Positions 144 through 26,355 of a DNA stretch of 34,251 bases are shown here, piece by piece; positions within the stretch are counted from its first letter, which is position 1, and every line of letters starts with the position of its first letter. This DNA is from Cytophagales bacterium (GTDB taxonomy: Bacteria; Bacteroidota; Bacteroidia; Cytophagales; Bernardetiaceae), in the NCBI GenBank assembly GCA_013299045.1, contig JAAFJX010000034.1, positions 1 to 34,251 on the forward strand, given 5' to 3'. The position numbers and the translations under genes are program-made. Below the pieces are notes generated by a model. That model did no database searches. It was not told the DNA's origin and was given only the letters and a program-made list of their open reading frames with translations.

Positions 144-1298
144 ATGAAGATACTTATCATTGGCGCTGGTATGTACGTCAGTGGCCGTAACGGTACAGGC
201 AACGGCACTATTCTCTCTGCTTTGGCGCAAACGTCCAAACACTTGCCTATTGAAGAGGTTTGCATAACAAGCCCCTCGGCAGGGAATGCTATTGTCGTTT
301 CAGAAGCAAGCGCCCGCATTAACAAATTGCTTGGCACAGAGCTCATGGTGCGTTTTGAAGTTTTGGAAAGCAGTATTCCAAACTTAGCGAGCTATGACCT
401 CGCCATAGTTTGCGTGCCCGACCACTTGCATCATCAATACGGCAAAATGGTTTTGGAAAGCGCCGTACATTGCCTCATGGTGAAGCCTCTCACACCAACA
501 CTGCGCGAGGCTATGGACTTGGAGGCCATTCGCCAGCAAAAACAAGTCTATGCAGCAGTAGAGTTCCACAAGCGTTTTGATGAAGGCAATCTGCTCGCCA
601 AAAGAATGATTCAGGAAGAGCGGCTAGGCCAAATTAGCTATATCGCCGTAGATTACAGCCAGCGCATCACTATTCCGACCGAAATTTTTAGGCAATGGGC
701 TGAAAAGAGCAACATCTTTCAGTATCTGGGCATACACTACGTAGACCAAGTTTATTTCTTGACGGGATACTGGCCCAAGCGTGTGTCGGCCATTGGCACA
801 AAAAATACGCTTAAAAGCATGGGTATAGAAGGTTTTGATTCTGTACACGTGATGAGCGAATGGGTAAATCCTAAAACAGGGCAGGAACTAGTGGCTGTTT
901 TTAATACCAACTGGATTGACCCGCGCACAAGTACGTCCATGTCCGACCAAAAATACCGCATTGTTGGCAGCAAAGGTCGTTTGGACTTAGACCAAAAAAA
1001 CAGAGGCGTGGAGTTTTCTAGCCACCACGAAGGCGTTTTGAGCATTAATCCGTATTTTTCAGAATATATGCCAGATGCTGATAATCAACACTATGACTTT
1101 GGTGGTTATGGGCACAAGAGCATTGTGCAGTTTGTGCAAGACGTAGCTGCTCTCAAAGCAGGAAGGGTAAGCGCCAATGCGCTTGCAGGCCTTAGACCCA
1201 CTTTTAAGGACTGCCTGCCCGCCACGGCGCTTGTAGAAGCCGCTAATTTGAGCCTTAGCAAAAACGGCAACTGGCATCAAATAGGCGGAAATTTTTAA
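144..1298 (+). CDS. Gfo/Idh/MocA family oxidoreductase
   Basis: This 384-aa protein looks like an NAD(P)-dependent oxidoreductase of the Gfo/Idh/MocA family. Such enzymes act on sugars, inositols or related polyols in the cytoplasm. The N-terminal Rossmann fold shows MKILIIGAG at residues 1-9, followed by an unusually glycine-rich stretch. VCVPDHLHH at 89-97 and a KP motif at K114 fit the cofactor and catalytic lysine region; the usual EKP reads VKP here. HYVD at 198-201 matches the second catalytic motif of the C-terminal alpha/beta domain. Length is normal for the family. The gene stands alone on its strand and its stop lies 7 bp from the stop of the convergent VWA gene, leaving no room for a separate terminator. 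The substrate cannot be told from sequence or neighbours. Confidence 0.85.
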   Translation: MKILIIGAGMYVSGRNGTGNGTILSALAQTSKHLPIEEVCITSPSAGNAIVVSEASARINKLLGTELMVRFEVLESSIPNLASYDLAIVCVPDHLHHQYGKMVLESAVHCLMVKPLTPTLREAMDLEAIRQQKQVYAAVEFHKRFDEGNLLAKRMIQEERLGQISYIAVDYSQRITIPTEIFRQWAEKSNIFQYLGIHYVDQVYFLTGYWPKRVSAIGTKNTLKSMGIEGFDSVHVMSEWVNPKTGQELVAVFNTNWIDPRTSTSMSDQKYRIVGSKGRLDLDQKNRGVEFSSHHEGVLSINPYFSEYMPDADNQHYDFGGYGHKSIVQFVQDVAALKAGRVSANALAGLRPTFKDCLPATALVEAANLSLSKNGNWHQIGGNF

Positions 1299-1305
1299 AA
1301 AATAA

Positions 1306-2418
1306 TCATAGATAACTTGCAACCAGTCCAGGAAAGGCATCGGGCGTGCAGCCAAAAACAGGTATGCCCAGGTCTTGAATGCGTGCAGCGGCTGCCTGAT
1401 TATAAACGGGTATGCCTTGGTCTGAAAGGCTCAACAGCACAATCAACCTAGCCCCTGAATCTTGTATTTGGGCTATGTGCTGCATCATTTGCAGCTCGCT
1501 GCCGCCCTCAAAAAGGTCTGTTATTAACAAAAAAATGGTGTCGGCTGGGCGGCTTATGAGCTGGCGAGAGTAAGCTAGGGCTTTGGCGATGTCTGTACCA
1601 CCACCAAGCTGCGTACCAAAAAGAACTTCTACGGGGTCGTGCAGATATTCGGTTAGGTCTGCCACCTGCACATCAAAAACCACTAAATGTGTTTTGAGCG
1701 CATTTAGGCTTGCCATGACTGAAGCCAGAATGCCAGTATAAACAACAGAAGTAGCCATAGAGCCGCTCTGGTCTAGGCAAATGATGAGGTCTTTGACGGA
1801 ACGGCCTTTGCGACCTCTCCCCTCTAGCTTTTGAGGAATAATAATTTTGTGGTCGGGCTGGTAGTGCCTGAGGTTTTTCCTGACTGTTTTGAGCCAGTCC
1901 AATTCATTTAACTTGGGGCGGCTATTGCGGGTTTGGCGGCTCAATGCACCACGCAAGGCTTTTTCGGTAAGAGGCTTTAGTTTTTGGGTAAGTTCTTGGG
2001 CTAGTCGTCGGACAATTTGCCGAGCAACTTCTTTGGCTTTTTGTGGCACTGCCCCCTTGAGAGAAAGTAAAGCTACCGCCAAATGCACATCAGGCACAAT
2101 GTTGTTTAGTAGCTCGTCTTCTTGAAGAATCTGCTCTAGTTTCAGTTTTTTAAGGGCATCTTTTTGGAGGATACTGACTACCGTCTGTGGAAAATATTGC
2201 CTAATATTGCCTAACCAAGGGCTTACGTGTGGTCTGCTGCTACCCAAACCAGCTTTTTGGTTTTGGTCGCTGTAAAGAAAGTCTAAGGTTTTATCTATAT
2301 GCCGTTCTTCTTCGCTGAGTAGTTCGGTGCTTTCTTGCTCCTCACGACCTAGCACTAAGCGCCAGCGTTTGGCACGGAGTTCTTCATTAGGTGGGTTTGT
2401 GGTTTCTCTCTCTGACAT
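1306..2418 (-). CDS. VWA domain protein of the type usually paired with MoxR ATPases
   Basis: A 370-aa cytoplasmic protein with a C-terminal von Willebrand A domain (about 205-370). The metal-ion site is visible as DQSGSM, the second MIDAS motif as GGGTDI and the third as ITDLFEG. The N-terminal half carries RAKRWRLVLG, GLGSSRPHVSPWLGNIR and DWLKTVRKNLRHY. From memory these match a specific VWA family that in other bacteria sits in an operon with a MoxR AAA+ ATPase, DUF5682, DUF5691 and SWIM zinc-finger proteins. In that setting the VWA protein is thought to work with the ATPase as a chaperone-like pair. None of those partners is in this window. Its upstream neighbour is a TPR lipoprotein only 5 bp away, so the two are probably co-transcribed. 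The family assignment is firm as VWA and moderate for the subfamily. Confidence 0.85.
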   Translation of the reverse strand: MSERETTNPPNEELRAKRWRLVLGREEQESTELLSEEERHIDKTLDFLYSDQNQKAGLGSSRPHVSPWLGNIRQYFPQTVVSILQKDALKKLKLEQILQEDELLNNIVPDVHLAVALLSLKGAVPQKAKEVARQIVRRLAQELTQKLKPLTEKALRGALSRQTRNSRPKLNELDWLKTVRKNLRHYQPDHKIIIPQKLEGRGRKGRSVKDLIICLDQSGSMATSVVYTGILASVMASLNALKTHLVVFDVQVADLTEYLHDPVEVLFGTQLGGGTDIAKALAYSRQLISRPADTIFLLITDLFEGGSELQMMQHIAQIQDSGARLIVLLSLSDQGIPVYNQAAAARIQDLGIPVFGCTPDAFPGLVASYL

Positions 2419-14562: not shown

Positions 14563-16500
14563 ATGAAATCCATAGACCGACTTTTACACCTCAAGGACTG
14601 TTTGCAAATAGAAAAAGAGGCCGACCTCGCCGCATATAACAAAAAAATGCTGGCCACTTCTATTGAACAAAAGCGAAAAGACGGTATTTGTTGGCATCCT
14701 ATGAGCATAGTTCATGAGCAAATTGGCTTGGGTGGGCGTTTGAGTTTGGAAGTAGAGCGCACCAAAGGGCAAGATATGCCGCACGTTTTGCAGTCTGGTA
14801 CGCCTGTGGTGTTGTTTTCTACCCGTTTAGAATCTACCAAACAAACGCAGAATGCGGTTGTTCAGAAGGTTTTTGGCAACAAGGCCTACCTTATTCTTCC
14901 GGAAGATGAGGCACCCGACTGGGTCTATGAAGGAGGTTTAGGTATGTATTTGAGCTTTGATGAGGCCACTTACCGTGAGATGAACTTTACGCTGGATAGC
15001 CTCCTCAAGCTGAAAGATGAACACTCAAGAGTAGCGGAACTGCGCGAAATCCTTTTGGGCAACGAAATGCCAGAATTTGAATCCAGCGTGCCCGCTTTTG
15101 AGTCTAAAAAACTAAATGCTTCTCAGAACGAGGCTATGCTACGTGTGGCATCTGCCCATGATTTAGCCATTGTACACGGCCCCCCCGGAACTGGTAAAAC
15201 AACAACTCTGGTAGCCTCTATTGCCCAAACACTGAAAACAGAAAAACAAGTCTTGGTGTGTGCGCCCTCCAACACAGCGGTAGATTTGCTCTGCGAAAAG
15301 TTGATTGAAAAAGGCATTAGCGTAACCAGAATAGGACACCCAGCCCGTATCCTGGAGCATTTGCACGACTATTCGGTAGATGGCAAACTGAGCAATCACC
15401 CTGATTATCGACACTATAAAGACATTATTCGGAAAACTGAAGAACTTTTTAAACTCTCTAATAAATACAAACGAAACTTTGGACGCGCCGAACGCGAACA
15501 GCGCCAAGCTTTGCGTTACGAAGCTCGCAAGTTGAAAGAAGATGCCATTAAGCTGGAAGATTATATGCTGCACCATATTCTTGACCATACGCAAGTCATA
15601 GCCGCTACTTTGGTAGGCGTTACGCATCAACTCATTAGGCATAAACAGTTTTCAACGGCCTTTATTGATGAAGCAGCTCAAGCCCTTGAACCAGCCTGCT
15701 TGATACCTGTGTTGCGCAGTAAGCGCATTGTAATGGCTGGCGACCATTTGCAACTTCCACCCACAGTTAAAAGCATGGAAGCCCTTAAAAAAGGACTGGG
15801 CAAAACCCTCATGGAACGGCTCATGGCTACCAAAAAGGCCGATGTATTGCTTGAAACACAATACAGAATGCACGAAGATATTATGGCTTTTTCTAATCAA
15901 AAATTTTATGGTAATCGCCTAAAGGCCGCCGAACCCAATCGTTTTCATCTCATTGCACCTGACGAAGCACCATTGGAGCTCATTGATACTGCTGGCTGTA
16001 ATTTTGAAGAGGTACAAGAACCAGAAACACTCAGTTTGCTAAATAGGCAGGAAGCCCTCATTCTCTTCAAGCATTTGGAGCGCTTACTCACAAAATTACA
16101 AGCAGACCATCAGTATGCGGCAGCCCTCCCCGAACTCAAAATTGGCATTATTGCACCCTATCGCGCACAGGTAACACATTTGCGCGAACAACTAGAGCAC
16201 CACGACTTTCTGCAATACTTTAAGCCTCAAATCAGCATACAAACCATAGACGGTTTTCAGGGGCAAGAAAAAGATATTATCTATATCTGTACGGTACGTT
16301 CAAATACTGCTCAAGAAATTGGCTTTTTATCCGATTTACGCCGTTTTAATGTAGCCATAACACGTGCTAAAAAGAAATTGGTGGTTATCAGCGACTCTGC
16401 CACGTTGGGTGCGCACCAGTTTTTTGCCGATTTTTTTGCTTTTATGGAAAAGACAGGCGTTTACCAGTCCGCCTGGGAGTATGCAGATGCGCTCAATTAG
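14563..16500 (+). CDS. SF1B (Upf1/IGHMBP2-like) DNA/RNA helicase
   Basis: A 645-aa cytoplasmic helicase of superfamily 1. I use the ATG at 14563 (MKSIDRLLHL); the longer reading begins with TTG inside a probable promoter box. An N-terminal beta domain precedes motif I, GPPGTGKTTT (about 206-215). Further motifs are VCAPSNTAVD (Ia), FIDEAAQALEP (II), MAGDHLQLPPT (III), LETQYRMHEDIM (IV region), IQTIDGFQGQEKDII (V) and NVAITRAKKKLVVI (VI). These are all intact, so it should be an active ATPase that unwinds nucleic acid. The order and spelling of motifs match the IGHMBP2/Upf1 group, not UvrD/Rep. The gene is monocistronic, and its stop codon overlaps that of convergent DedA by 3 bases. Confidence 0.9.
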   Translation: MKSIDRLLHLKDCLQIEKEADLAAYNKKMLATSIEQKRKDGICWHPMSIVHEQIGLGGRLSLEVERTKGQDMPHVLQSGTPVVLFSTRLESTKQTQNAVVQKVFGNKAYLILPEDEAPDWVYEGGLGMYLSFDEATYREMNFTLDSLLKLKDEHSRVAELREILLGNEMPEFESSVPAFESKKLNASQNEAMLRVASAHDLAIVHGPPGTGKTTTLVASIAQTLKTEKQVLVCAPSNTAVDLLCEKLIEKGISVTRIGHPARILEHLHDYSVDGKLSNHPDYRHYKDIIRKTEELFKLSNKYKRNFGRAEREQRQALRYEARKLKEDAIKLEDYMLHHILDHTQVIAATLVGVTHQLIRHKQFSTAFIDEAAQALEPACLIPVLRSKRIVMAGDHLQLPPTVKSMEALKKGLGKTLMERLMATKKADVLLETQYRMHEDIMAFSNQKFYGNRLKAAEPNRFHLIAPDEAPLELIDTAGCNFEEVQEPETLSLLNRQEALILFKHLERLLTKLQADHQYAAALPELKIGIIAPYRAQVTHLREQLEHHDFLQYFKPQISIQTIDGFQGQEKDIIYICTVRSNTAQEIGFLSDLRRFNVAITRAKKKLVVISDSATLGAHQFFADFFAFMEKTGVYQSAWEYADALN

Positions 16501-18320: not shown

Positions 18321-19565
18321 TTATTGAACCACTATTTTTTGTGAGCGAACTTTTTTACCTTCAGATATTTTGATAATGTAGGTGCCTGGCGTGCCAATAG
18401 GCAGAGATATTTTGCGGTTATAACTGCCAGTAAAGCCCTCCAATCTTTCAGCAAATACTTCTTTGCCGTTGATGTCTAAGACGCTTACAGCCAGTGTAGT
18501 CTTCTTTTTTACATCAAAATTCAAGGTAAAGTTTCCGTCGCTGGGGTTCGGATACACCAAGAAATTATTTAAGCCCTTGATATTGTCTTCTTTGAGGAGA
18601 TTTTCGCTATCAGCGCTGTTTTTAGATGTTTTTGTAGGCTTATCCTCCTTTTTACTTTTGTTGATGATGATAACGCTCACATTGCGCTCCATATCTCCCG
18701 CTTTGTTTTTGAGCATATAAACGGTGTTGCCTTCTTTAGACTCAAACTTTTCCAGTTCAGCACCGTCTTTTTGGAGTTCCAACACACGGGCATCTGTACC
18801 ATCTTTAGGCACAAAGATAAACTCGTTCTGGAATATGCAGCTTTTCATGCTATCCATTCTGATATGCGCAAGTTGCCCAAGTTCTTCGGCCATTTGGTTC
18901 AAATTAATGTACATTTTCTCGCGGTCTATGTTCGCTTTTTCAACGTCAATGTACATTTTCTCGAGGTCTATGTTCGCTTTTTCAAGGTCTATGTTCATTT
19001 TTTCAAAGTCTTTAAGCTCTTTAAGCTCTTTAAGGTTCTTGAGCTCAATTTTTACCTTTTTGAGTCCGTCCTTCATAATTTGCATATTGCATTTGCCGAG
19101 AGAGTCCTTGAATAAAAAATTTTCGCCTCCATCAAAGGTTTTGAACATGATGCGTGGATGCCCCTCAGCAGAACCTAAGCTGTCGTTTCCAATGATAATA
19201 TTAACGTTATCATTAAGCACCTTGACGTGCCCTTTGATACCTTCTACATCAACATCAATCATTTCGCTTACATTGATTACGTGGCGCGGGCTTTTTCCGT
19301 CGCCAGAGGTTTTGATGTCGATAGTTTCGATGCCTTCGGTGTTCATCTGCTCTATCTCTTTTTTGATGCTTTCGGGCATTTCGCCTTCAAACTCGTGCTC
19401 AATGACTTCTTTTTTGCCATCTTTGATGCGTACAATTTTGATTTTACTTTTTTTAGACGCTGTTGTTTTAGTGCTGCTGCCGCCATCTTGCGCATAAGAC
19501 GTGCTGCCAAAACCAACGAAACAGGCTACTGCCAAAACTGCTACTAATTTGTTTAATTTGAACAT
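18321..19565 (-). CDS. Secreted protein with T9SS type A sorting domain and heptad repeats
   Basis: A 414-aa protein. Residues 1-26 are a signal peptide ending SYAQ. The C-terminal 79 residues (336-414) form a type A sorting domain of the type IX secretion system, with LVYPNPSDGNF, VLDINGKEVF and GTYIIKISEGKK as landmarks. This tail directs export across the outer membrane and is normally cleaved. The middle is unrecognised and charged; residues 188-222 hold five 7-residue repeats such as EKANIDL and EKMYIDV, likely an extended coil. A very acidic/basic region (38-75) precedes it. The core function is unknown. A full-match promoter and a strong terminator make it a single-gene unit. Confidence 0.85.
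   Translation of the reverse strand: MFKLNKLVAVLAVACFVGFGSTSYAQDGGSSTKTTASKKSKIKIVRIKDGKKEVIEHEFEGEMPESIKKEIEQMNTEGIETIDIKTSGDGKSPRHVINVSEMIDVDVEGIKGHVKVLNDNVNIIIGNDSLGSAEGHPRIMFKTFDGGENFLFKDSLGKCNMQIMKDGLKKVKIELKNLKELKELKDFEKMNIDLEKANIDLEKMYIDVEKANIDREKMYINLNQMAEELGQLAHIRMDSMKSCIFQNEFIFVPKDGTDARVLELQKDGAELEKFESKEGNTVYMLKNKAGDMERNVSVIIINKSKKEDKPTKTSKNSADSENLLKEDNIKGLNNFLVYPNPSDGNFTLNFDVKKKTTLAVSVLDINGKEVFAERLEGFTGSYNRKISLPIGTPGTYIIKISEGKKVRSQKIVVQ
18900..19004 (-). repeat. Five 21-bp in-frame repeats in the T9SS cargo gene
   Basis: Five consecutive 7-codon units read EKMNIDL, EKANIDL, EKMYIDV, EKANIDR and EKMYINL. Units alternate between an EKM type and an EKA type, so the DNA also looks like a 42-bp repeat. 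The near identity at DNA level points to recent duplication. Confidence 0.75.
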
Positions 19566-24171: not shown

Positions 24172-24828
24172 ATGGATTTTATTTCTGAAGATATTGCCAA
24201 CTATGCTGAAAAGTATTCAAGCCCTGAGTCCGCAGTGCTCTACGCTCTTAACAGACGCACACATTTAACTGTCAGCAAGCCAAGAATGCTTTCCGGACAC
24301 TTACAGGGAAATTTATTAAGTACCTTTGCTAAACTCATACAACCCAGCAAAGTTTTAGAAATAGGCACTTATACTTCATATTCTGCCATTGCGCTCGCCA
24401 CTGGTCTTAGTGAAAATGGCACTTTAGATAGTATAGATAACAACGAAGAGTTGTATGAAATGAATTCAAATACCATCAAAGAAGCAGGGCTTAGTCATAA
24501 AATTAAGTTACACATTGGAGATGCAAAAGCAGTCATTGCGCTTTTACAAGGTCAATTTAAAAGTTCAGAGTGCTGGGATATGGTTTTTATTGATGCAGAC
24601 AAAAATAACTATGCACTCTATTATGATTTAGTCATTGATTACGTTAGAAAAGGGGGGCTTATTATTGCAGACAATGTACTCTGGAGCGGAAAAGTATTAA
24701 ATGATAAGGTTACAGATAAAGACACGCAAGCCTTAAAAGCCTTTAATGAAAAAATATTAAATGACAATCGCGTATACAACACACTCTTGCCAGTTAGAGA
24801 TGGACTAATGCTAATTTACAAGTTATAG
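24172..24828 (+). CDS. SAM-dependent O-methyltransferase, catechol/CCoAOMT type
   Basis: A 218-aa cytoplasmic enzyme of the Methyltransf_3 family. It should move a methyl group from S-adenosylmethionine to a hydroxyl, usually on a catechol-like ring, with a divalent metal. The SAM site shows KVLEIGTYTSYSAIALA (about 61-77), where the motif I consensus is E-I-G-T-x-x-G; here S replaces the last glycine. Metal ligands are expected at MVFIDADKNNY and IIADNVLWSGKV, both intact. Length is normal. The base composition is more AT-rich than the genes to the left. The natural substrate cannot be inferred from the neighbours. The gene converges on lpxK across the 42-bp repeats. Confidence 0.9.
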   Translation: MDFISEDIANYAEKYSSPESAVLYALNRRTHLTVSKPRMLSGHLQGNLLSTFAKLIQPSKVLEIGTYTSYSAIALATGLSENGTLDSIDNNEELYEMNSNTIKEAGLSHKIKLHIGDAKAVIALLQGQFKSSECWDMVFIDADKNNYALYYDLVIDYVRKGGLIIADNVLWSGKVLNDKVTDKDTQALKAFNEKILNDNRVYNTLLPVRDGLMLIYKL

Positions 24829-24844
24829 TTTAGCATTTTAACTA

Positions 24845-25138
24845 AAAAATATAATGTTTACACTGAGCAGTGTACTCGATTCAAAAGCTAATGTATAAAT
24901 ATCGTAAAGTATTATCCTTTTTACACTAAACAATTTACTTTTTACACAAATCAATATACTACTTTCATTATAAAATTTACTACTTACACAAGTCAATATA
25001 CAGTTTTAACTAAACAATTTACTATTTACACGAATCAATATACTACTTTCATTATAAAATTTACTATTTACACAAGTCAATATACATCTTTAATTAAACA
25101 ATTTACTATTTACACAAGTCAATATACTACCTTCATTA
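24845..25138. repeat. Array of 42-bp tandem repeats
   Basis: Five clear copies occupy 24929-25138 without spacers: 24929, 24971, 25013, 25055 and 25097, each 42 bp. The common core begins AACAATTTACTATTTACAC and continues AAGTCAATATACTAC. Copies alternate in their first bases (AACAATTT or TAAAATTT) so that an 84-bp pair also repeats. Two more degenerate copies can be aligned at 24845-24928 (roughly 28 and 22 matches of 42). The plus strand is almost free of G (zero or one per copy) and has several C. Each copy carries TTTACACA or a close variant. It lies between convergent genes, in a 459-bp gap; the right part (25139-25287) is extremely AT-rich and holds no recognised feature. Confidence 0.9.
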
Positions 25139-25287
25139 TGCAATACTATTTTTATATTTAACAAATTGCTAATTTATTAAATAAATACATATTTTTAATA
25201 TTAAAATACACAAAAAAAATACTATTATGCAATATTTGCACAACAGTATTTATAAAATGAATCAATTAGTTTATTTTTTTAATAAGA

Positions 25288-26355
25288 TTATGGTATTTTT
25301 TCGTTTAAAAAAGCATGAAACGATTGGGCATCTTCACCAAAATCAACACTAATAGTCCAATAAAAAATAGGAACTTTATCAATTAAACTATCAAATTCAG
25401 AATTTAATAGTTTAACAATATCTTTTTCGGTAGTAATAATAGCCGTTTCACTTGGCTCTTTAGAACTATTATATGATTCTACCAGTTTTTTAATAAATAC
25501 TTTATTGTATTTGAAGTGGTCTTTAAGGTCATATACTTTTAATACATTCATTTCTGATTTAACTTTATCAATAAATAATTTTGCATCAGCTAGCCCACAA
25601 ACAACAATAGCATTTTTAATAATAACATTACTAAATTCTTTTTTTAATGGTTTTAATTCATCATAAACAATACTACTAAAAAATATTGGTGTATTTTTTT
25701 TTAAATAAACTTTTGCTTTTTCATAAAGTTCTTTTCTTTTTGAGTAAGACAAATCGTTAGGGCATTTTGTAAAAATTAAACAGTCAGCACGTTCTGCTTG
25801 ACTTTTATGTTCGCGAAGTCTGCCTAATGGTAAAAAAGTATCTTCATAAAAAGGCAGTGTATAATTTGATAATAAAATATTTAGATTTACACTTAAAGAA
25901 AGTTGCTGATAAGCATCATCAAGTACAATATAACTATATAAATTGCTTTTAAATTTTAAAGCTTTATGTCTGTCTTCAGACACAAGTACGGTTACACTTT
26001 CATCAAATCTTTTATAAATAAGCAAAGGTTCATCACCAATATCTTTTGCAGTGCTTTGATTAGTTGCTTCTAGAAATCCACTTGTTTGACGACCGTATCC
26101 GCGACTTAAAGTAGCTAATTTACTATTTACTTTATGTTTAAAAAGCCAGTCAATTATATAAATAACGTGCGGCGTTTTGCCGCTACCACCCGCAGTTAGG
26201 TTTCCAACAGCCAAAAGATAAGATTGATATTTAATTTTTCTTTTTGCACTTTTTAATGCACCTTTTCTCCATAAAAAAATAGCGCTTCTATATGGCCATG
26301 TAAAAAGCCATGCGAGGAGTGCAATGGCTTTTTTAAGTACTTTTAAACTATTCAT
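25288..26355 (-). CDS. lpxK: Tetraacyldisaccharide 4'-kinase (lipid A kinase)
   Basis: A 355-aa membrane-associated kinase that phosphorylates the 4' position of the lipid A disaccharide precursor, the sixth step of lipid A synthesis. An N-terminal hydrophobic helix (about 8-30) is followed by the P-loop GNLTAGGSGKTP (51-62), LSRGYGR (83-89), IGDEP (106-110), the DDAYQQ motif (146-151) and LPLGRLRE (175-182), then TEKDIVKL near the C-terminus. The usual motif is DD-G/A-F/L-Q-H; here the histidine is replaced by glutamine (Q151). The DNA is notably AT-rich. The M16 peptidase gene ends 6 bp upstream, so both are probably one transcript. Assignment is secure; activity with the changed residue is presumed. 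Confidence 0.93.
   Translation of the reverse strand: MNSLKVLKKAIALLAWLFTWPYRSAIFLWRKGALKSAKRKIKYQSYLLAVGNLTAGGSGKTPHVIYIIDWLFKHKVNSKLATLSRGYGRQTSGFLEATNQSTAKDIGDEPLLIYKRFDESVTVLVSEDRHKALKFKSNLYSYIVLDDAYQQLSLSVNLNILLSNYTLPFYEDTFLPLGRLREHKSQAERADCLIFTKCPNDLSYSKRKELYEKAKVYLKKNTPIFFSSIVYDELKPLKKEFSNVIIKNAIVVCGLADAKLFIDKVKSEMNVLKVYDLKDHFKYNKVFIKKLVESYNSSKEPSETAIITTEKDIVKLLNSEFDSLIDKVPIFYWTISVDFGEDAQSFHAFLNEKIP

Follow-up and report, generated by a model that had tools for sequence, protein, structure and literature searches.

What kind of element fills the gap between the converging genes for an O-methyltransferase and LpxK in a Cytophagales bacterium (Bacteroidota, Bernardetiaceae; GenBank assembly GCA_013299045.1)? 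The DNA analyzed, referred to below as the window, is the entire stretch of 34,251 nucleotides read from contig JAAFJX010000034.1 (positions 1 to 34,251, forward strand), and the gap in question is occupied by a tandem array. This array was found to consist of 21-bp units, to have three sister arrays in the same genome, and to share with them a spacing held at exactly 21 bases despite drift of the letters; 21-bp arrays of unrelated units also occur in some other bacteria of the class. The spacing may therefore be important in its own right. Our tentative reading is that it is a non-coding, phased protein-binding array.

The initial annotation had described 42-bp repeats of two alternating types, together forming an 84-bp unit, between positions 24845 and 25138. 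Written in rows of 21, the array has a base unit of 21 bp, about TTTWCACTAANCAATWTACTA, and the 42- and 84-bp repeats are higher-order periods of this unit. Tandem Repeats Finder (TRF) gave three periods within 24919-25139: 21 bp (10.0 copies, 64% matches, 2% indels), 42 bp (5.0 copies, 80% matches, 0% indels) and 84 bp (2.6 copies, 92% matches, 0% indels). The 42-bp repeat exists, but not as the basic unit, and the 84-bp repeat, four units long, was confirmed; it is a recent amplification. The array consists of three parts:

24836 to 24919, plus strand: degenerate units left of the core (matrix scores by unit)
24920 to 25150, plus strand: core of 11 consecutive 21-bp units, ~2.75 copies of the 84-bp (four-unit) higher-order repeat (11 of 11 units best at offset 0; TRF; unit table)
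25151 to 25276, plus strand: degenerate right-hand units, up to 12 bp from the lpxK stop codon (unit scores by offset)

The left units at 24836, 24857 and 24878 scored 13.5, 13.6 and 2.7, each best at offset 0, and the unit at 24899 scored -3.4 and was not best there; a weaker unit, at 24815, partly coincides with the end of the methyltransferase gene. On the right, the units at 25151, 25193 and 25235 were best at offset 0, and those at 25172, 25214 and 25256 were not. In-register units span about 24836-25276, nearly the whole intergenic gap, and the limits first assigned to the array proved too narrow. Wear is heavier at the edges than in the core, and several outer units are too worn for their register to show. 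The plus strand of the 231-bp core (94 A, 42 C, 6 G, 89 T) is G-poor, as had been observed; the more specific statement, at most one G in each copy, holds with one exception: from 24920 onward, the 42-bp copies contain 0, 2, 1, 1 and 1 G. In the broad sense, the array is an intergenic minisatellite, i.e., a non-coding tandem repeat with higher-order amplification. A CRISPR (clustered regularly interspaced short palindromic repeats) array was ruled out, the units lying head to tail without unique spacers.

BLAST and pattern searches revealed related DNA on other contigs of the genome, where three arrays were read in rows of 21. They are listed below by contig, the window array being labeled C5:

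C48, about 99598-99263, minus strand: sister array
C16, about 861-1322, plus strand: sister array
C58, about 62904-62464, minus strand: sister array

A model built solely from sequence, using 17 gapless rows of the unit, found C5, C48, C16 and C58 and no other array of comparable strength among the 150 of 1,431 first-look candidates that were scored, a search in which weak arrays could be missed. In a leave-one-out analysis, a matrix from three arrays was used to scan 0.81 Mb, on both strands, for the fourth. Each array appeared in the top four places, with 8-unit sums of 142 (C5), 112.8 (C48), 94.5 (C16) and 128.2 (C58), and the best score outside the four arrays was 4.6, at C48:102013. Toward their worn ends, the C58 array scored 18-34 and the C16 array -4 to 6. 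The weak C48:102013 site, whose place in the four rankings was seventh three times and sixth once (sums from -8.2 to 4.6), was not counted as a fifth array.

The eight 700-bp flanks of the four arrays share just two short matches (an exact one of 16 bp, and one of 21 bp with 90% identity inside a single locus; expectation value, E, 0.003 for each), and the arrays are therefore not plain copies of one larger element. A mobile element with shared ends was likewise unsupported: the flanks have no common sequence beyond these two matches and the array ends no clear inverted repeats, the longest exact inverted match between the ends being 8 bp in C48, 13 bp (of A+T-rich letters) in C16 and 7 bp in C58, with none of at least 7 bp in C5. 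A coding (heptapeptide) repeat was rejected as well, since C48, C16 and C58 contain stop codons in all six frames; the core of the window array has one stop-free frame of six.

To assess the spacing, the arrays were aligned to a cyclic consensus (match +1, mismatch -0.6, gap -3). Over the 1,680 bp of the four arrays, there were 1,107 matches, 573 mismatches, about a third of the letters, and no indels, whereas six arrays of other genomes scored in the same way gave 334 mismatches and 11 indels. Column conservation was uneven inside each array (chi-square p from 3.9e-6 to 1.4e-3), and the column profiles of the arrays were mutually correlated, with a mean rho of 0.59 that was not reached in any of about 1,500 permutations; four of the six pairs were individually significant. 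The initial annotation had related the 42-bp period to about four turns of B-DNA. The fit to whole helical turns stands and agrees with the absence of indels in the unit alignment, but the true period corresponds to two turns (21 bp), not four.

The surroundings of the window array comprise the following features:

24172 to 24828, plus strand: O-methyltransferase gene (Methyltransf_3; Pfam PF01596, E 1.1e-51), left neighbor
25288 to 26355, minus strand: gene for LpxK, tetraacyldisaccharide 4'-kinase (Pfam PF02606, E 4.3e-58), right neighbor, convergent
25217 to 25251, minus strand: terminator-like hairpin with a T tail, downstream of lpxK and within the right-hand units (16 pairs, 3 of them G-C, loop of 3; 1 found, shuffle mean 0.1)

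The stop codons at 24828 and 25288 face the array, which confirms its position between convergent genes. C58 also lies between convergent genes (a family-2 glycosyltransferase gene and an unassigned gene), and the neighbors are in tandem at C48 (recG and an unassigned gene) and C16 (a bacterial alpha-2-macroglobulin gene and an unassigned gene).

The unit model was also applied to other genomes. Seven of 290 other genomes of the order had a match at E 1e-3; five of these matches proved to be 21- or 42-bp arrays built from other units, and the two in G114 and G005 were dropped as not being arrays. In the class, six of 394 other genomes had a match at E 1e-4, and all six hold a 21-bp array according to TRF, again with other units. 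It should be noted that a 21-bp model favours period-21 arrays; the controls were its rows re-spaced to 22 and 20 bp with equal total information. In the class draws of 395 genomes, the 21-bp model matched 6 of the 394 genomes outside its own, compared to 0 of 394 for both the 22-bp and the 20-bp model.

The preference for this period was examined further by TRF in 1.80 Mb of stretches from ten genomes. Among the 22 arrays with a base period of 12-60 bp outside open reading frames (non-ORF arrays), 13 had period 21 and none had 20 or 22, while the other nine had nine different periods (18 and 24 once each). This sample is biased, as G352 supplied nine of the 13 and G044 the other four, both genomes having been reached via the model or its query; the G044 array C96 is itself a model match, and another of the 13 (L254) is a poor array. 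Five of the 13 are closed in all six frames. No non-ORF 21-bp array was found in the eight other sampled genomes, including 400 kb of the genome studied here away from the four loci. The preference for 21 is thus strong in two sampled genomes and unseen in the rest.

In 324 kb of G352 (L281-L300, contigs not chosen for content), nine non-ORF 21-bp arrays were accompanied by eight further arrays of base period 21 or 42 under predicted ORFs, with units that are mostly different. Dyad symmetry, first noticed by eye, was tested in 16 arrays not picked by the unit model, 14 from G352 (five under ORF calls) and two from G044, with two period-42 arrays (L288 and L299:1533) left out. Their units were more symmetric than column permutations (combined z 4.7; p <0.05 in 6 of 16). 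In contrast, 11 model-found arrays were not palindromic (combined z 0.99; p <0.05 in none), and dyad symmetry was absent from the unit of the window family (pooled p 0.49). The G352 arrays may belong to a different class, with the period as the sole common feature.

Within the genome studied, a binding array is favoured because four loci carry one motif with a kept spacing and related conservation patterns. A putative DNA-binding protein would make contact on the same side of the helix at intervals of 21 bp, or two turns, and would probably bind cooperatively along the intergenic DNA; once bound, the array may act on local chromosome structure or on insulation between transcription units. We infer the protein as the cause, its cooperative binding and its structural role.

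A number of observations speak against this proposal, beginning with the fact that the protein is purely postulated. A model search of ten relatives from the family found no array of the window unit; among matches below E 0.03, the range that was read, there was a single one, in G005 (E 8.8e-4), which was not an array in rows of 21. The nearest relative, a Cytophagales metagenome-assembled genome whose LpxK is 47% identical, has no array in the 3' region of lpxK. Because units differ in the 21-bp arrays of other genomes, a single binder conserved across the class is not their common denominator. Convergence of the flanking genes is no rule either, because two of the four arrays sit between tandem genes. 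As regards spacing, the G412 array alone accounts for eight of the 11 comparator indels, and half of the six comparators are free of indels; the array limits were picked as in-register stretches, so that slips at the ends would escape notice, and TRF did report indels for the window array at period 21. Two pairs of column profiles are weak (C58-C5, 0.41, p 0.063; C58-C48, 0.39, p 0.077), and common ancestry combined with an A+T mutation bias could produce part of the column pattern. Coding repeats, whose period must be divisible by 3 and so is never 20 or 22, may explain part of the preference for 21: just one (G412) of the seven arrays behind the six class matches has stops in every one of the six frames. 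Repetition of a unit free of stops is enough to open a frame, however, and open-frame class arrays are therefore not shown to be coding. Finally, worn edges and a recent 84-bp amplification resemble ordinary satellites.

Nearly as likely as the binding array is a neutral minisatellite, in which replication or recombination would favour duplication steps of two helical turns, with arrays born locally, spread occasionally and then wearing out. This would account better for the unrelated 21-bp arrays elsewhere, which share a period and not a unit; the 13 of 22 non-ORF arrays with period 21, all from G352 and G044, to which the 21-bp model or its query had led, the wear and amplification of the window array, and the lack of the unit as an array in the family relatives also agree with it. 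By itself, however, it leaves unexplained the combination of 573 mismatches with no indels and the common column pattern, and the presence of one unit at four loci without shared flanks requires a dispersal step. The initial annotation had listed both a protein-binding array and a neutral satellite, and both are retained as candidates. It had proposed a search of the genome and its relatives, with absence of the unit elsewhere as the sign of a neutral satellite; the outcome is divided, the unit being present at three other loci of the genome and not found as an array in the search of the ten family relatives. A broader proposal appears doubtful, namely that some Bacteroidia keep intergenic arrays whose 21-bp spacing (two helical turns) is conserved while the units differ between genomes and mostly between loci, the upkeep serving a helix-phased assembly of chromosome proteins, with the window array as a strongly phase-locked example.

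Other origins and functions are considerably less probable. It is improbable that the unit derives from three heptamers, heptanucleotide slippage (reportedly common in some bacteria) having produced 7-bp arrays and then 21-bp arrays. The TRF sample does contain 17 non-ORF 7-bp arrays, and 7-bp harmonics carry 80% of the power of the unit's C pattern (permutation p 0.0046, C being one of four bases tested). Lag-7 correlation also supports it in two of the four arrays (p 0.021 and 0.023). Against it, the other two arrays show nothing (pooled p 0.118 for all four), the combined z was 0.87 over 13 sets and 1.45 over 19 arrays, and the sample contained a single period-14 array outside ORFs, with periods 28 and 35 absent. 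The 7-bp inner period is thus mixed for the window unit and not significant over all arrays. In G044, perfect or near-perfect 7-bp arrays were observed beside 21-bp arrays (e.g., L125:15613-15757 and 15817-15894, and L238:1-99).

Lower still is the probability of an RNA-level element, in which the array would belong to the 3' untranslated region of lpxK, and its counterparts to those of genes at the other loci, and would act on transcript ends. Each of the four loci has a gene directed toward the array whose end lies 12 to about 185 bp from the array's right-hand end, and read-through would give the G-containing strand; this orientation is informative only at the two tandem loci (C48 and C16). 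The hairpin within the right-hand units upholds part of the earlier suggestion of a terminator-like site, on the lpxK side (25251-25217, minus strand), but the minus-strand transcript of the whole region folds no better than shuffles (z -0.74), and no Rfam match was obtained at gathering scores. Five sigma-70-type promoters were found against 6.1 expected in shuffles, two of them (11 of 12 matches) in the array on the minus strand. The Bacteroidota-type promoter pattern TTTG-N17-23-TAnnTTTG occurs 10 times in the window against 3.1 expected and not once in the array.

Selection for intrinsic curvature is very improbable. Just 1 to 4.5% of approximate dinucleotide shuffles were as curved as the four arrays in predictions with wedge parameters, but arrays with permuted columns and an unchanged period were equally curved (p 0.26 to 0.58), and intergenic windows elsewhere in the genome gave similar values; the curvature is thus a consequence of the period. 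A DnaA-box cluster or other replication site, which the initial annotation had raised since TTTACACA resembles a relaxed DnaA box, is the least probable explanation of all. The array holds one exact TTWTNCACA (24940-24948), and the six in the window as a whole are at the level expected by chance (6.26). In the DnaA-like part of the unit, CACA, column 7 is C in 53% (T in 37%) and column 8 is A in 56% (T in 37%), while the strongly conserved A14 and T15 fall outside any DnaA-like box. The GC skew of the contigs is too weak to place the arrays on a replication map or to orient them by replication strand. As a test for iterons, plasmid and phage collections were searched and gave no blastn match at E 1e-3; in viral contigs, 33 stretches each contained one exact unit match.

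Several other repeats were observed in the course of the analysis. In the window, a 42/21-bp repeat at 18906-19011 lies inside a predicted ORF (18321-19565, minus strand) and is probably a coding repeat, and a short 21-bp repeat of 2.7 copies near the contig end (34106-34162) is perhaps coding. Near the C48 array, a short 21-bp repeat with another unit (L075:6584-6649; G000:C48 about 100583-100648) occupies the gap before an alanine dehydrogenase gene and showed no match to the window family (p 0.62). Dispersed throughout G000 (e.g., L105:4518-4569, L113:5566-5617 and L116:2508-2558) is an element at least roughly 115 bp long, whose flanks are conserved and which contains about four 11-bp repeats; its two-repeat pattern gave 148 genome matches (80 + 68, overlapping), compared to 0 for a reversed control, and its organization resembles that of a miniature inverted-repeat transposable element (MITE) enclosing a minisatellite. 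At L106:386-5635 (G000:C9:60386-65635), a tandem array of 5.2 kb with a period of 76/151 bp lies outside the ORFs of a simple mask.

If the spacing is selected, the arrays would be ready probes for a phased DNA-binding protein in bacteria in which chromosome architecture has received little attention. Should the spacing instead be mutational, tandem duplication would proceed by two helical turns at a time in some of these bacteria, a clue to its mechanism. Either way, a preference of non-coding DNA for 21 over 20 or 22 can be tested directly in thousands of genomes.

Among the literature matches listed, with most subscription journals outside the search, no description of intergenic arrays with a 21-bp period in Bacteroidota was recognised. 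The STAR elements of staphylococci are GC-rich repeats with spacers, unlike the arrays described here. They resemble these as interspersed intergenic direct repeats (PMC3532100). BrickBuilt of Porphyromonas gingivalis is a 23-nt minisatellite within a MITE (PMC4596501). It shares with the arrays described here a host in the Bacteroidota, spacer-free tandem repeats, an intergenic position and several copies per genome, but its unit is 23 nt instead of 21 bp, and it has common flanks with inverted-repeat ends, where no common flanks were found here; for these differences, a BrickBuilt-type minisatellite was rejected. Direct repeats of the heptamer TAACTGA, reported as mostly intergenic in several groups including five Bacteroidetes (PMC4679880), are 7-bp repeats in mostly short sets, whereas the present arrays are long and built from a degenerate 21-bp unit. 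For the heptameric repeats of Xanthomonas and Nostoc, polymerase slippage is cited as a hypothesis (PMC4692102). Those repeats are G-rich and were studied for quadruplex formation, while the arrays described here are A+T-rich with very few G; both are intergenic tandem repeats with a favoured unit length.
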